From assembly GCF_001456355.1 (NCBI RefSeq), contig NZ_CP010271.1, positions 2,790,001 through 2,854,000 on the forward strand: a stretch of DNA of 64,000 bases, in the 5' to 3' direction. The DNA comes from Mycobacteroides saopaulense (lineage in GTDB: Bacteria > Actinomycetota > Actinomycetes > Mycobacteriales > Mycobacteriaceae). Both the position numbers and the translations under genes were made by a program. Each line of letters begins with the position of its first letter. The stretch's first letter is position 1. This document shows, piece by piece, positions 54,404 to 59,944 of the stretch. Below the pieces are notes generated by a model. The model was not told where the DNA came from and searched no databases. It saw nothing but the letters and a program-made list of their open reading frames with translations.

Positions 54404-54874
54404 CTACGAAGATTCCGGTGATTGGCGCCGCAACCTGCCCCCCAGCCCCTGCAGGCTCCGCAACACCGTCCGTGCCGCATAAAACCCGGCCACCAGCGTC
54501 AGGGCCAGCATGACCAGGAACATGATCAGCCAGTTGCTTCGGGTGTGCTCGATGTTCCACCAGATCACGGTGAACAGAACGGCACCGATGAAGACCAGAA
54601 CGTCCCGCCAGCCGCCGCCGTAGGACAGCGCGGCCTCGCGTAGCGATCGGCCGCGATCGCTGGTGGCCACGAGATCATCGATCCGCTGGTCGATCATGCG
54701 TTGAAACGCCGCGCGGCGTTCTGTCTGTTCCTCGGGAATGCGGTCGAGCAGATCGAGATCCTTGGCGATCAATCCCCGGATGTCCGGGGGTTTGAGATTG
54801 CCCGCCACGGCACCGAGCAGCGCGCCACCGGCGATGGGTGCGGCCCCCAGGGCAAGTTCTGCAAGTCCGGGCAT
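54404..54874 (-). CDS. two-TM membrane protein of the dapB operon
   Basis: A 156-residue protein: hydrophobic N-terminal segment (residues 3-25), amphipathic charged stretch (near 30-85), then two strong membrane segments (near 92-110 and 116-140), and a basic tail. ATG 54874 has AGGAGA five bases before it and follows the 3' fragment of the broken flavodoxin gene by 10 bases. It is the likely downstream end of the original operon. Family not recognised. Confidence 0.7.
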   Translation of the reverse strand: MPGLAELALGAAPIAGGALLGAVAGNLKPPDIRGLIAKDLDLLDRIPEEQTERRAAFQRMIDQRIDDLVATSDRGRSLREAALSYGGGWRDVLVFIGAVLFTVIWWNIEHTRSNWLIMFLVMLALTLVAGFYAARTVLRSLQGLGGRLRRQSPESS

Positions 54875-54884
54875 ACCTGTCTCC

Positions 54885-55124
54885 TCATTGCATCAAGATC
54901 GCGGCCAGCGTGCCGCCAAGGTTATAGGCCTGCTCGCGCACCGATGCGTCGATCGGACCGACCACCTCCAGCACGTCTGCCGCCTTCTCCAGGGCCAACC
55001 CGGTAGCTATCTTGTCCACGGCAGCCGCCGCACCCACCGTGTCGTTGTTGCCGTGCACCCACAGGCCGTAGGGACGCGTGGCCACGTGATCCAGACTCGG
55101 GTAGTAGACGGTGTCGAAGAAGTG
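54885..55124 (-). pseudogene. 3' fragment of flavodoxin-like gene (Rv2771c equivalent)
   Basis: Eighty codons including the stop, from His at 55124 to Gln at 54888. The peptide runs HFFDTVYYPSLDHVATRPYG and on to a C-terminal LAAILMQ. It has no start of its own in frame near the junction. Joined at His to the fragment at 58159-58377 it gives exactly 150 residues, the length of the intact copy at 57670 and of the gene at this place in M. tuberculosis. The internal ATG at 55085 is not a plausible start for a functional protein. Confidence 0.85.
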
Positions 55125-55127
55125 CTT
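55123..55127. repeat. left junction direct repeat of the island
   Basis: TGCTT, also found at 58163-58167 at the right junction. The left copy continues TGAGCG and the right copy CAGCG, so an imperfect repeat of about 11 bases spans each border. Confidence 0.45.
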
Positions 55128-55203
55128 TGAGCGTCTTAATCATGTCACTAACTGCCGCCCTTCCGGGACCGCGTAGATCGTGATCCTCGATACGGTGCGA
55201 TGC

Positions 55204-55980
55204 ATGAACGATGGCGAGCGAGATTCCGAAAGATACTTGCGACGGGTCGTCGAACTACTCCATGGAGTCACACTCGAACCGTTTGATCGCGACGGACGTC
55301 AACGCGCAGTCGACTACGTTTTTACTGCTGCGCGGGGCGTTCGAGGTGCCGTTGAGATGACCACATTCCGCGATCGCCGGGCCGCCGCATGGTTCAAGGA
55401 GCTAGACAGCAACGAAGTTATCGAGTGCGCGAGCACCCGCGGCTGGACCGTCATCGTCAAACTCGGAACCAAGCTCGATCAGTTGAGACAACGATTGCCG
55501 TCTGTGGTGGCGGAGTGCGACCTCCACCGGGTCGACAATCCTGCTCGTATGCCAGCGGCCCGGTGGAGCAAGGATGTCCGGTGGTTCGTCTCAGCCGGAA
55601 TCGGCCTCTATCCCAGCTCGGCAACACGGCCCGGTACCGTGCGCATTCAGATGCCGCCGACTTCAGGATTTCCATCTGAAGAAGGGCTCAACCGCGACCT
55701 GAAACACCTTCTATCCGATCCGGGAATTGCGACAAAGCTAAGCAAGCTCAGCGACCATAGCGACGTCACTGAACGTCATTTGGCGGTAGGTGCCTGCGAC
55801 GTCTACAGGCCTGGTCTCGACCTCGTCGCGCACCTGCTGTTTAGCCCTGACCACGTCCCCCTGCACGTTCTACCCGACGAGTTTGCTGCATCGCACGTCT
55901 GGATCACCGGCGGTAGCCATTCGGTACTGACCTGGACTCGCTCCAGCGGATGGTCGTGGCAGTCGCTACCTCGGCACTAA
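55204..55980 (+). CDS. island gene of unknown function, weak PD-(D/E)xK-like motif
   Basis: A 258-residue protein starting at ATG 55204 with TACGGT (55191-55196) seven bases upstream. N-terminal region has RYLRRVVELLHG, then DGRQRAVDYVFTAARGVRGAVEMT, where Asp-Tyr and Glu-Met-Thr sit in strand contexts similar to restriction-endonuclease folds (D...ExT in place of ExK). The C-terminal half has Trp-rich strands (ASHVWITGGSHSVLTWTRS). Convergent with the partner gene of the next operon. I do not recognise the family; a nuclease or effector role is inference. Confidence 0.65.
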   Translation: MNDGERDSERYLRRVVELLHGVTLEPFDRDGRQRAVDYVFTAARGVRGAVEMTTFRDRRAAAWFKELDSNEVIECASTRGWTVIVKLGTKLDQLRQRLPSVVAECDLHRVDNPARMPAARWSKDVRWFVSAGIGLYPSSATRPGTVRIQMPPTSGFPSEEGLNRDLKHLLSDPGIATKLSKLSDHSDVTERHLAVGACDVYRPGLDLVAHLLFSPDHVPLHVLPDEFAASHVWITGGSHSVLTWTRSSGWSWQSLPRH

Positions 55981-55990
55981 GCTCCCCCGG

Positions 55991-56974
55991 CTAGCGAATC
56001 GTGGGGTGCTCCTCGATTGAGATGGTGGTCTGGTCACCAAGTGGACGAACGTCTATCAGAACTCGACTAACGCGGGATTGAGCCTTGTCACCTGGCAGAT
56101 AGGACTCGACCACATCGAACCTTGCCGACACACGCTGGTTCGGGTCGTTCATCAGCCTGGTGACCGCCTGTGCGACGCGCGTCTCAGTCACTCCGGCTGT
56201 GAACCTAGACCCAGTGTCATTTTGGAAATAGAGAGTGCCCAGGGACCACCGAAAACCGTCAATCGTCCCGATCTGGGCCTCAGTCCGCCGCTTTTCATGT
56301 GCGGACTCAAGTTCAATCCGCAGCCGGGTCGCTCCGTCGGGTGTCAGTTCAAGGTCTGCTGCGCCTACCTGTCGTTGCCGGATCGTGCCACGCACTCCCC
56401 AACCACCATGCTGAGATGCATTGACCACCCGCTTAAGCGCCGTTCGGGCTTGCGGTGGCAGTTCGGCAATCTCAGCGGCAAGCGGAGTATCCAGATCCGG
56501 ATCGCTGGCAAGGGCAAGGATCGATGCCACCGTGCGAAGGGCATCCGAATCGACAGTAGAAGCCACCGTCGTTTCATCAACCGTCTGACCTTTGGGGATG
56601 ATCGGATTCGCCACTCGTAGCACCACCCGGACAGATCCCGGTGTCGCACCCTCAATCAAGAGGTTCTCGCTATAGCTCTTGCGTCCAGCGCGCGCCTTTG
56701 CCGTCTCCTTGACCGCCTCGCTTAGCCCGCTCACAAACAGTGAGAACTGCCGCGCGTTCGCCGCGTTGTTCTCCACTCCAGGGCCATCGAGATGCAAGTC
56801 CACCTCAGCTTGTTCAGGACCAACTTCACGTTCGTAGATATTGATCAGCTCGGCGTCGTTACCGACAAGGCCTATCCGAATTGACTCCCGGACAGCTCGA
56901 TCAGAGCTGGGATCGTCCGACCTGTAGCGGAGTGCGTCAACGAGCGACTGCTCAAACTCACGGTCAACAGCCAC
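55991..56974 (-). CDS. partner protein of the nucleotidyltransferase-like gene, unknown
   Basis: A 327-residue protein starting at a GTG that overlaps the preceding stop by one base (TAGTG), so it is coupled. Sequence shows an acidic N-terminus, LDGPGVENNAANARQFSLFVSGLSEAVKE near residue 60, then GATPGSVRVVLRV, a helical middle and a beta-rich C-terminal third. The small helical domain followed by a G-x-V/F-x-V strand is a layout I associate with several defence-linked proteins, but no family can be assigned. Size and coupling suggest it binds or controls its neighbour. Confidence 0.65.
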   Translation of the reverse strand: MAVDREFEQSLVDALRYRSDDPSSDRAVRESIRIGLVGNDAELINIYEREVGPEQAEVDLHLDGPGVENNAANARQFSLFVSGLSEAVKETAKARAGRKSYSENLLIEGATPGSVRVVLRVANPIIPKGQTVDETTVASTVDSDALRTVASILALASDPDLDTPLAAEIAELPPQARTALKRVVNASQHGGWGVRGTIRQRQVGAADLELTPDGATRLRIELESAHEKRRTEAQIGTIDGFRWSLGTLYFQNDTGSRFTAGVTETRVAQAVTRLMNDPNQRVSARFDVVESYLPGDKAQSRVSRVLIDVRPLGDQTTISIEEHPTIR

Positions 56975-57483
56975 TATGAACTCACCTCCAAGTACCCTTT
57001 GCGGACTCCCGGAACAACAGTGTGCGTCTCATCGCGCACCGACGACCACTTTTCATCCCATGGCTTCAGAATGATGGCGACGTCAGGGAGAAAGAACCCG
57101 TCGATCAGACCTCCCATCGGATGCACTTTTTCGCTGTAGACACCAGGCTGGTCGGGAAACACGCCCAGCATCGTCCAGAGAGGCAGAAACTCCGGTGACG
57201 TCACCTTGCCATGCTCACTTGGGGGTACGACAACAACGATGTCCGCGTCCTCTGGCTCTTCCCATGCCTTGTGGGTGACGAACCCACCATCTACCCAGAA
57301 CCGACATGTACTGAACTCGGCACTGACGAGATCGACGTAGAGGGTAAGTGCACGGAAGATCAACTCACGACGTGGACGAAAAGGCGCGTTCTCCACGAAT
57401 ATTTCGTAGACCTCATCCAGGCTCGCGGTATGCCGACCCGTCGGGAGAGTCCCGTATTGCCCGCTTGTAGCTGGAATCGGCAC
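56974..57483 (-). CDS. DUF6932-like nucleotidyltransferase-fold protein
   Basis: A 169-residue protein. Near residue 15 LPTGRHTASLDEVYEIFVENAPFRPRREL, and near residue 60 CRFWVDGGFVTHKAWEEPEDADIVVVV. The Gly-Gly-Phe-Val-Thr-x-Lys followed by Asp-Ala-Asp fits the GS...DxD core of minimal nucleotidyltransferases as seen in DUF6932-type proteins. The usual Gly-Ser is Gly-Gly here. GTG start at 57483 with a G-rich ribosome site. First gene of a two-gene operon; nucleotidyltransferase-type toxins paired with a second protein are known in toxin-antitoxin systems. Confidence 0.7.
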   Translation of the reverse strand: MPIPATSGQYGTLPTGRHTASLDEVYEIFVENAPFRPRRELIFRALTLYVDLVSAEFSTCRFWVDGGFVTHKAWEEPEDADIVVVVPPSEHGKVTSPEFLPLWTMLGVFPDQPGVYSEKVHPMGGLIDGFFLPDVAIILKPWDEKWSSVRDETHTVVPGVRKGYLEVSS

Positions 57484-57546
57484 CGCGCGTTCCCCCTGTG
57501 TATGCCGCCTCGACCCATTGGCTGTGAATAATTACACGAAATAGCC

Positions 57547-57571
57547 AGCTGGCGTGCACTTGTTGCCAGCT
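57547..57571. promoter_or_regulatory. inverted repeat upstream of the island operon
   Basis: AGCTGGC (57547-57553) and GCCAGCT (57565-57571), exact arms around 11 bases, lie 64-88 bases upstream of the nucleotidyltransferase-like gene. Could be an operator for autoregulation or the terminator of the intact flavodoxin gene. Confidence 0.45.
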
Positions 57572-57669
57572 TGTGACTCATCAGTTTTCACCGTGGCGCA
57601 TCCTGGCTGCGTCGCGATTGCACAGCCCGCGGGAATCATCCAGAAGTTACCCGCGACGTGCAGAAACTG

Positions 57670-58122
57670 TCAGCCCATCAGCTGTGCAGCGACCGTCGCG
57701 CCAAGGTTCCAACACGCCTCGACATCAGCCTTGCTCGGCTTGCCTGACACCAAAACTGTCTCTGCGGCCTGAACCCAGCCCAAGCCGCTAGTGATCGAAT
57801 TGATGGCCCGCTCAGCACCTTCCGCGCCTTCATTGCCATGCATCCACACTCCGAACGGTCGGCCAGCAGTGCTGTCGAGCAGTTGGTAATACGAGCAGTC
57901 AAATGCGTGCTTGAGAGCCCCGGAAATGTAACCAAGGTTGGCAGGCGTTCCCAGAAGGTAACCATCCGCCTCTAGCATCTCAACCGGCGACACAGTGAGT
58001 GCGGGCCGACGCACTACCTCCACACCCTCGATTTCTGGATCGGTCGCCCCAGCCACCACAGCCTCGAACATCTCCTGCATGTGGGGCGACGGCGTGTGGT
58101 GAATGATCAACAATCGCGACAT
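57670..58122 (-). CDS. intact flavodoxin-like protein carried by the island
   Basis: A 150-residue flavodoxin/NADPH-dependent FMN-reductase-like protein. The phosphate-binding loop HHTPSPHMQE at residues 8-17, GTPANLGYISGALKHAFD near residue 58, and HGNEGAEGAE near residue 96 are the flavin-site loops. It is about 53% identical to the rejoined broken copy by hand count. ATG 58122 has GGGAGG seven bases upstream and lies 36 bases after the stop of the 5' fragment, in the same orientation, so it would be transcribed by the dapB operon and can replace the broken gene. Confidence 0.88.
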   Translation of the reverse strand: MSRLLIIHHTPSPHMQEMFEAVVAGATDPEIEGVEVVRRPALTVSPVEMLEADGYLLGTPANLGYISGALKHAFDCSYYQLLDSTAGRPFGVWMHGNEGAEGAERAINSITSGLGWVQAAETVLVSGKPSKADVEACWNLGATVAAQLMG

Positions 58123-58158
58123 CTTCGACCTCCCTCTACATGTGGGGTAATGGACAAA

Positions 58159-58377
58159 TTAATGCTTCAGCGCACCGGACATGTACCCGAAATTCGCGGT
58201 GGTGCCGAAGAGATAGCCATCGGCGTCCAGCATGTCGGGGATCGTCGCGGCCAGCGCCGGCCGGGCCACTACCTCGACTCCGGAGATATCGGGGTCGTTG
58301 GCGCCCGCCAACACCGCGTCCAACAATTCCCGGGTGGCCGGCGACGGGGTGTGGTGCACCACGAGCAGGCGCGTCAT
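58159..58377 (-). pseudogene. 5' fragment of the split flavodoxin-like gene
   Basis: Seventy-two codons starting with ATG 58377 and ending after GALKH in a TAA supplied by the island border. It has HHTPSPATRE and GTTANFGYMSGALKH, the first two flavin loops, but lacks the third. The ATG overlaps the stop of the upstream gene as ATGA, so the fragment is still translated and may make a short peptide. Confidence 0.88.
58163..58167. repeat. right junction direct repeat of the island
   Basis: TGCTT, matching 55123-55127. In the restored gene a single TGCTT would encode (on the minus strand) the Lys-His of the split site. Confidence 0.45.
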
Positions 58378-58834
58378 CTGGCGGCGTCCTGCTGCATCTG
58401 CACGGCGGTACGCATGGTCTCTCGCGCCCGGCCCCGGTCCCCCGCATAGTCATACGCGCGCGCCAGCCGGTACCACCCCACCCAATCATCGGGGTCGGCC
58501 TCGACCTCGGCCTTCACGGTCGCGAAAAGAGTATCGGCGTCCTCACGGTCGACCCGCCCGGAAGGAGTTGTCCGCAGCGCGCTCACATCCAGATCACGGC
58601 CCTGCTCGGCGGCCAGCGCGGCGAGACGCTGATGCGCGAAACCCGCACGCAGAGTAGCGATCATGGCCCACAGGCCGATGAACGGAAGGATCAGTACGCC
58701 GATCCCCATACCGATCGCCGCGGGCTTCCCGGTCTGCACCAGGGCGATACCCATCCTTCCCAGGATCAGGAAGTACACCACCATCGCCGCGCACATGAAC
58801 GCGATGAGGATTTTGACCCGGGCGGCGGCGGACA

Positions 58835-58835
<1 letters not shown>
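58374..58835 (-). CDS. membrane protein with C-terminal TPR-like segment (Rv2772c equivalent)
   Basis: A 153-residue protein with two membrane segments (near residues 8-26 and 40-60) and a soluble C-terminus with one TPR-like unit (DPDDWVGWYRLARAYDYAGDRGRARETMRTAV near residues 114-145). GTG start shares one base with the dapB stop (TAGTG). It is conserved between dapB and the flavodoxin-like gene in mycobacteria. Role unknown. Confidence 0.82.

Positions 58836-59944
<1,109 letters not shown>

Follow-up and report, generated by a model that had tools for sequence, protein, structure and literature searches.

A 3 kb island in a flavodoxin-like gene of Mycobacteroides saopaulense is probably a recombinase-less relative of satellite-like elements that carry a replacement for the gene they interrupt

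The 64,000-nucleotide stretch of the Mycobacteroides saopaulense genome analysed here (NZ_CP010271.1, positions 2,790,001 to 2,854,000; hereafter the window, in whose numbering all coordinates are given) contains a flavodoxin-like gene, situated behind dapB, that is cut at codon 72 by an insert of about 3 kb. This insert, the island, carries a complete second homologue of the gene that it interrupts. It probably represents a small member of a family of elements that integrate at this codon by means of a large serine recombinase (LSR). The features of the locus, in the direction of transcription of the dapB operon, are as follows.

58835-59572, minus strand: dapB, an upstream operon gene; gene order kept in relatives.
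58374-58835, minus strand: TPR-like membrane gene, the upstream operon gene after dapB; gene order kept in relatives.
58159-58377, minus strand: 5' stub of the resident flavodoxin-like (FMN_red) gene, residues 1-72, then TAA.
58162-58164, minus strand: codon 72 (CAT) of the stub, its first two bases (CA) being the likely crossover dinucleotide.
58134-58161, minus strand: left element arm (element half of the left attachment site, attL); contains the TAA of the stub and matches a 28-position profile.
57670-58122, minus strand: complete replacement copy borne by the element, 150 amino acids, FMN_red family (Pfam FMN_red E 1.2e-5).
57907-57909, minus strand: codon 72 of the replacement copy, CAC.
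56974-57483, minus strand: cargo 1, a DUF6932 protein of 169 amino acids (PF22014 E 1.7e-17; PADLOC PDC-M63A E 2.4e-12).
55991-56974, minus strand: cargo 2, a protein of 327 amino acids, conserved partner of cargo 1, paired with DUF6932 in other loci.
55180-55980, plus strand: cargo 3, a protein of 266 amino acids on the strand opposite to the other island genes, with zero matches in Pfam, PADLOC and NCBIfam.
55125-55157, minus strand: right element arm (element half of the right attachment site, attR), of probable extent; adjoins CACTTC of the resident 3' piece.
54885-55124, minus strand: 3' piece of the resident gene, residues 72-150, starting with a His codon.
54404-54874, minus strand: downstream resident gene, 156 amino acids, a membrane protein by eye; adjoins the target gene in six intact relatives.

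The two pieces of the resident gene had been delimited correctly in a preliminary description of this DNA, which placed the cut after Leu-Lys-His. The 5' piece consists of 72 codons, the last three of which specify those residues, with TAA next, and it aligns over its whole length to residues 1-72 of the intact orthologues in six relatives with 89-96% amino acid identity; the 3' piece aligns over its whole length to residues 72-150 with 94-95% identity. The replacement copy is also as first described: an intact reading frame of 150 residues in the orientation of the stub, beginning 36 bases past its TAA and preceded by AGAGGGAGG. Its identity is 65% to the 5' piece (74 residues) and 44% to the 3' piece (80 residues), values that fit an earlier hand count of 80 agreeing positions in 150. 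Stub, full copy and 3' piece are the only three flavodoxin-like matches in the genome, which forms one contig of 4.65 Mb. The G+C content is 0.586 in the island and 0.642 in the window. Comparison of the replacement copy with four homologues gave non-synonymous divergence (dN) of 0.09-0.12 and synonymous divergence (dS) of 1.3-1.8; with dN so far below dS, the copy evolves under constraint.

The site is empty in most of the closest relatives of this bacterium. We took as nearest relatives those genomes in which the TPR-like gene is at least 89% identical (seven of 297 genus genomes besides its own, the next value being 72%). In six of the seven the flavodoxin-like gene is uninterrupted, adjoins the 156-amino-acid gene, is of the same type as the resident pieces (the native type) and stands alone at the locus, which bears out the proposal that the island was inserted in a resident gene. 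When the window is aligned to these six empty sites the flanks overlap by 7-18 bp around a core at codons 71-72, the mark of a duplicated core, and the shared run in the window is AAGCA. The seventh relative, M. franklinii, has a copy of the island's type (the element type), 85% identical to the island copy, together with a scar from the native 3' end (25 residues, 72% identical); a dapB tree places the window in a supported set of nine rows that includes this species. Between the native pieces and the intact relatives dN is 0.02-0.07 and dS 0.47-1.14, compared with 0.04-0.05 and 0.30-0.86 for one pair of intact genes. With no decay in the pieces, the cut appears to be recent.

The same codon has been cut elsewhere among the mycobacteria. 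In a survey of 80 named genome loci that contain a close copy (the best 80 of 461 confirmed stretches; loci are numbered with the prefix L) at least one 5' stub was found in 11 (L092, L093, L097, L101, L104, L106, L107, L114, L117, L128 and L133). A native-type stub is present in L093, L097, L101, L104 and L107, and the whole anatomy of the window, including a full-length native 3' piece, recurs in L093 and L097. Stubs end at residue 71-72 in 12 of 14 rows, the window included, and at residues 68 and 64 in the other two; L101 and L117 contain two stacked stubs each. Differing cargo was met repeatedly at this junction, as a check suggested in the preliminary description had anticipated. Two or more matches to the gene are present in 27 of the 297 genomes, a figure that is an upper guide and not a count of insertions: among twelve such genomes that were inspected, two (L248 and L252) have neither a stub nor a convincing scar near the copy. 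At six further loci (L247, L249, L253, L254, L096 and L077) no 5' stub was detected and a 3' scar lies downstream of the copy; these are possibly healed insertions. At another six (L102, L120, L122, L127, L151 and L161), 2.5-6 kb of other genes separate the TPR-like gene from the copy, with no stub detected; one gene in these stretches encodes a protein of 1,054 amino acids that is cyclase/ATPase-like by eye.

Elements that encode a recombinase have been caught at this codon. In a viral contig (L171) residues 71-150 of the gene are abutted by the gene of an LSR of 487 amino acids, with matches to PF00239 (E 3.6e-23), PF07508 (E 7.5e-10) and PF13408 (22.3 bits, under its cut-off of 25.3); we count the resolvase catalytic, Recombinase and zinc ribbon domains of an LSR as present in these relatives, not in the window's island. 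Relatives of this recombinase with 60-71% identity lie at the same codon in Mycobacterium sp. 141 (L203), in M. attenuatum (L204), in L205 and in M. persicum (L206), and a fragment with 63-64% identity does so in L041. Three elements have both ends on one contig (L203, L204 and L205, about 14-16 kb each) with the LSR gene at the far end; a fourth has its ends on two contigs of one genome (L213 and L206), L171 has the right end only and L041 the left end. All five LSR elements with a readable left end carry there, like the island, an intact homologue of the interrupted gene, in the orientation of that gene and 0.04-2 kb from the stub.

The gene content of the complete relatives resembles that of phage satellites. 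L203 and L205 encode the LSR, excisionase-like proteins, a primase/polymerase and a terminase large subunit, while L204 encodes the LSR, a terminase and a primase. A scan of 15 of the 17 called open reading frames (ORFs) of L203 against PHROGs, which left out the copy and a DUF4238 gene, gave zero matches to capsid, portal or tail families. A gene set like that of the phage-inducible chromosomal islands (PICIs), with integrase, replication and packaging functions and no full virion set, is thus a property of the complete relatives, not of the window's island. Among the cargo genes close to the copy are those for a type IV Mrr-like endonuclease (L204), for DUF4238 proteins (L203 and L204) and for a cytosine methylase with Vsr (L205).

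A pair of closely related species records the two states of the target. M. ostraviense (L107) has one element copy that is intact, an empty site; the counterpart of this copy in M. persicum (L213 and L206) is split, and an LSR gene and a further full copy stand between its halves. The flanks are 94.6% and 92.2% identical in the two species and the break falls at 10426-10430 of L107, which reads AAGCA. In M. attenuatum (L204) the break is in the same place as in M. persicum.

The element side of the junction is conserved too. A left-arm profile of 28 positions was built from 13 other elements with the window arm excluded. The window's left arm scores 23.7 bits, a score equalled at one of 127,944 window positions (the site itself) and in none of 20,000 shuffles. 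When the same profile was applied to the loci of four later elements (137,768 positions), the four highest scores fell on their arms; of six later stub loci this scoring left out L250 and L257, whose stubs end before codon 72, and one of the four (L255) has flanking cargo sequence in common with training row L203 and so is not fully independent. The short core can be narrowed further. In L204 and in L213/L206 the bases that flank CA differ between attL and attR, so that, barring later mutation, the exchange took place within CA. The crossover dinucleotide is thus likely to be CA, the first two bases of codon 72, a 2 bp overlap within the AAGCA run that is shared between close species. The strands are cleaved about a central dinucleotide that in Bxb1 is described as the sole determinant of the polarity of integration (PMC3642061). 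A pseudo-palindromic attP, the attachment site of the element, with half-sites of 25 bp is described in PMC3783163. The dyad between left and right arms was equalled or exceeded in 13 of 2,000 shuffles for L204, in 95 for L205 and in 406 for L203.

These observations suggest that the island is a small member, without a recombinase, of a phage-satellite-like LSR family that integrates at codon 72 of the flavodoxin-like gene, a reading to which we assign a probability of about 0.87. The LSR of such an element would recombine attP on the circular element with the chromosomal site, cutting the resident gene. The element would bring a complete homologue near its left end in the direction of the resident gene, so that the operon could be read through the stub into the replacement, and cargo, with restriction-type genes in some elements, would be placed around that copy. 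The replacement can itself be hit by another element, giving stacked stubs, while in other lineages most of the element would be lost and the element-type copy retained. The element in the window may have lost its LSR gene, may never have had one, or may have been supplied with the enzyme in trans. It was probably the LSR family of L203-L205 that made the insertion in the window, and the replacement copy is presumably expressed and functional, restoring the gene that was interrupted. The absence of a recombinase here and its presence in complete relatives go beyond what the preliminary description had noted.

Several observations weigh against this assignment. The island contains neither an LSR gene nor any other satellite gene, and the genome has no relative of this LSR at E <= 1e-3, five of ten first-look candidates having been scored. 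Of 70 element ORFs compared with the island, the only ones to match were three copies of the flavodoxin-like gene and one ORF with 30% identity (E 0.003). The right arm in the window has a weak resemblance to those of the LSR elements (59 of 2,000 shuffles score as high), and the window's two arms show no dyad (1,108 of 2,000 as high). The motif has divergent members, since three of the 13 training arms (L133, L205 and L041) fall below zero in leave-one-out scoring. In L041 the LSR gene is directly behind the replacement copy and in the same direction, not at the far end as elsewhere. At L207-L211, where related LSRs lie at other places, no stub-and-copy pair was seen among the called ORFs except one tandem pair of 29% identity (L208), so that a carried replacement is not general for the LSR family; stretches of 3-19 kb around LSRs of at most 57% identity (L207-L212) have no flavodoxin-like gene.

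Searches of phage and plasmid sequences gave little. Zero matches were obtained with the L203 LSR or the exact left-arm pattern in viral contigs, with the whole-island DNA against phages and plasmids at megablast sensitivity, and with the island copy as a protein against phages. The same protein matched 26 plasmid records, the best (75%) being a Tsukamurella record that looks chromosomal. One record, NZ_LR134457.1 (L172, Tsukamurella tyrosinosolvens 'plasmid 15'), contains dapB, the flavodoxin-like gene and genes for thymidylate synthase, dihydrofolate reductase, dapA, ribonuclease J and an FtsK translocase, and looks like a chromosome fragment. Mycobacteriophage Paola, whose LSR is 50% identical, was considered as a user of the same target and rejected: the 230 bases before its integrase gene contain neither AAGCA nor TGCTT, and show by eye a different palindrome.

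How the island came to be without a recombinase can be read in more than one way within the LSR family. It could be a natural mobile unit of 3 kb with its own attachment arms, mobilised by an LSR in trans and not a remnant of deletion. In its favour, L093 and L097 share the short anatomy and lack an LSR, with about 1.9 kb and about 0.9 kb, respectively, separating the copy from the 3' piece, and in none of the mapped loci was the cargo of the window found at this site. Against it, the right arm in the window is weak and no helper of this LSR type was found in the genome. We regard such a non-autonomous origin as possible and lean against it. The cargo itself has moved in other company. The 327-amino-acid gene has matches in 10 of the 297 genus genomes, the window's own included, and the DUF6932 gene adjoins it at all eight other loci counted (L053-L060; L061, a weak match, and L062, a second piece, were left aside), which are at other places in mycobacterial genomes. 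With adjacency in eight of eight and three of the loci nearly identical, the pair looks like a mobile two-gene module.

A fragment of another mycobacterium that contained its flavodoxin-like gene and neighbours could instead have entered by chance through homologous recombination, with no site-specific element involved. Donors abound, since element-type genes are the commoner in the genus, and the island has no recombinase; this origin is nevertheless very unlikely when 12 of 14 stubs are cut at the same codon, a common arm motif lies behind the cut, LSR elements have been caught at that codon and the flanks match native genes right to the core. The preliminary description named as a refuting outcome an arrangement common to the relatives, with the intact copy as vertical orthologue; this clade presents no such picture. 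Despite the abundance of element-type genes, it is scarcely credible that the split gene is an old paralogue in decay next to the genuine orthologue when the native type is intact and alone at the locus in the six nearest relatives and the pieces show no decay.

The gene tree, in which few forks are supported, places the island copy amid element-type copies from other mycobacteria, apart from the natives of its own clade, as the tree of both copies proposed earlier had been meant to reveal; the 13 native-type mycobacterial genes form one clade (SH-aLRT support 99). Element-type genes, as the preliminary description had not recognised, appear in about 208 of the 288 genus genomes that have a match (best E <= 1e-70, the rest being 1e-53 or weaker). 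Placed on the dapB tree the two gene types need seven changes, of which at least two are forced by supported branches, so the gene lineage has been swapped more than once. The swaps may have run in either direction, since genes from other families of the order group with the element types in a tree that was rooted at its midpoint and has long branches. In Williamsia, a member of another family, two loci (L143 and L170) with the same dapB-thyA context contain genes that share 81-82% identity with the island copy, a close match for the distance.

If a replacement copy presents the same target, it is open to attack in its turn, and some copies appear to have been altered precisely there. From 133 unique full copies we dropped five without upstream context and set apart 13 of native type, all with His-72 and none behind a stub, leaving 115 of element type. 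Codon 72 is not a His codon in 6 of the 20 element-type copies behind a stub and in 1 of the 95 without one (Fisher p 8.6e-5, uncorrected for kinship); the recoded codons are CTG (four times), CTT and GTG behind a stub and CTT without. Residue 72 is the most enriched of the compared columns, and among 74 nearly invariant columns the stub copies deviate six times at this residue and at most twice at others. Residues 70 (p 0.0015) and 74 are also among the seven most enriched columns. The case for recoding is weakened by the presence in those seven of residues 7, 93 and 56, which are distant from the site, by a sample enriched for multi-match genomes, by a weak tree with five changes of codon state, and by a kinship-corrected test of independent pairs that found one supported pair only and had no power. 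CA is retained in 14 of the 20 stub-preceded copies, the window's included, and of the four LSR elements with both ends two are recoded (L204 and L213/L206) and two are not (L203 and L205). Recoding at the crossover dinucleotide is thus suggestive. In 'home-and-rescue' gene drives a target gene is disrupted and a rescue copy is carried that has been recoded at the cut site. We propose tentatively, at somewhat less than even odds, that the satellites are natural rescue drives: they would hit a nearly invariant codon, carry a full copy and, in part of the family, have recoded it at the crossover (CA to CT or GT), making it unusable as attB, the chromosomal site, for their own or competing elements, while unrecoded copies would stay open to re-targeting in a cycle that has swapped the gene lineage repeatedly across mycobacteria.

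A family that carries a whole replacement for its target, and whose serial insertions are kept as stacked stubs, would indicate how a mobile element can settle in a conserved gene at small cost and drive the exchange of one chromosomal allele for another. This LSR, together with its site at codon 72, is in addition a candidate integration tool. Where elements enter tRNA or protein genes, it is common for them to patch one end of the gene. The islands and prophages associated with dusA (PMC4482086) are likewise site-specific in a conserved protein gene that is kept intact by element sequence, but there the 5' end of dusA is replaced and fused to the resident remainder, whereas the family described here brings a whole divergent homologue and abandons the resident 3' part. 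The serine-integrase prophages of M. abscessus at attB-7, -9 and -17, and Bxb1 in groEL1, also insert inside ORFs at a core of 5-8 bp; in the account given of the former (PMC8092301) MAB_2445, MAB_3230 and MAB_3265 are reported as disrupted and no replacement is mentioned. Of 29 sites in another study six are used by serine integrases, one of them in codon 6 of a methyltransferase gene whose reconstitution is unclear (PMC10654092). The words flavodoxin and dapB are absent from the main texts of these last two papers, the site table of the latter standing outside that scope, so that one of its sites could be this gene. The mycobacterial PICI-like satellites and phiRv1/phiRv2 treated in PMC10654092 are likewise small, with an integrase (some of the serine type) and, in some, replication and terminase genes; the PICI-like candidates are defined there by a capsid gene, of which none was recognised in the 15 of 17 called ORFs of L203, and replacement of the target gene does not figure in what that paper says of them. 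Among the listed titles and abstract openings from the open-licence PMC literature, supplements lying outside, none deals with this site or with an element that combines a serine integrase and a complete replacement gene. The likeness to rescue gene drives has its limits, in that the family described here would not home by repair and would rely on recombinase-mediated integration in bacteria, and in that it is natural and not engineered. If the proposal is true, recoding at the crossover would be the natural counterpart of those drives and would offer a direct test of target-site exclusion between elements.

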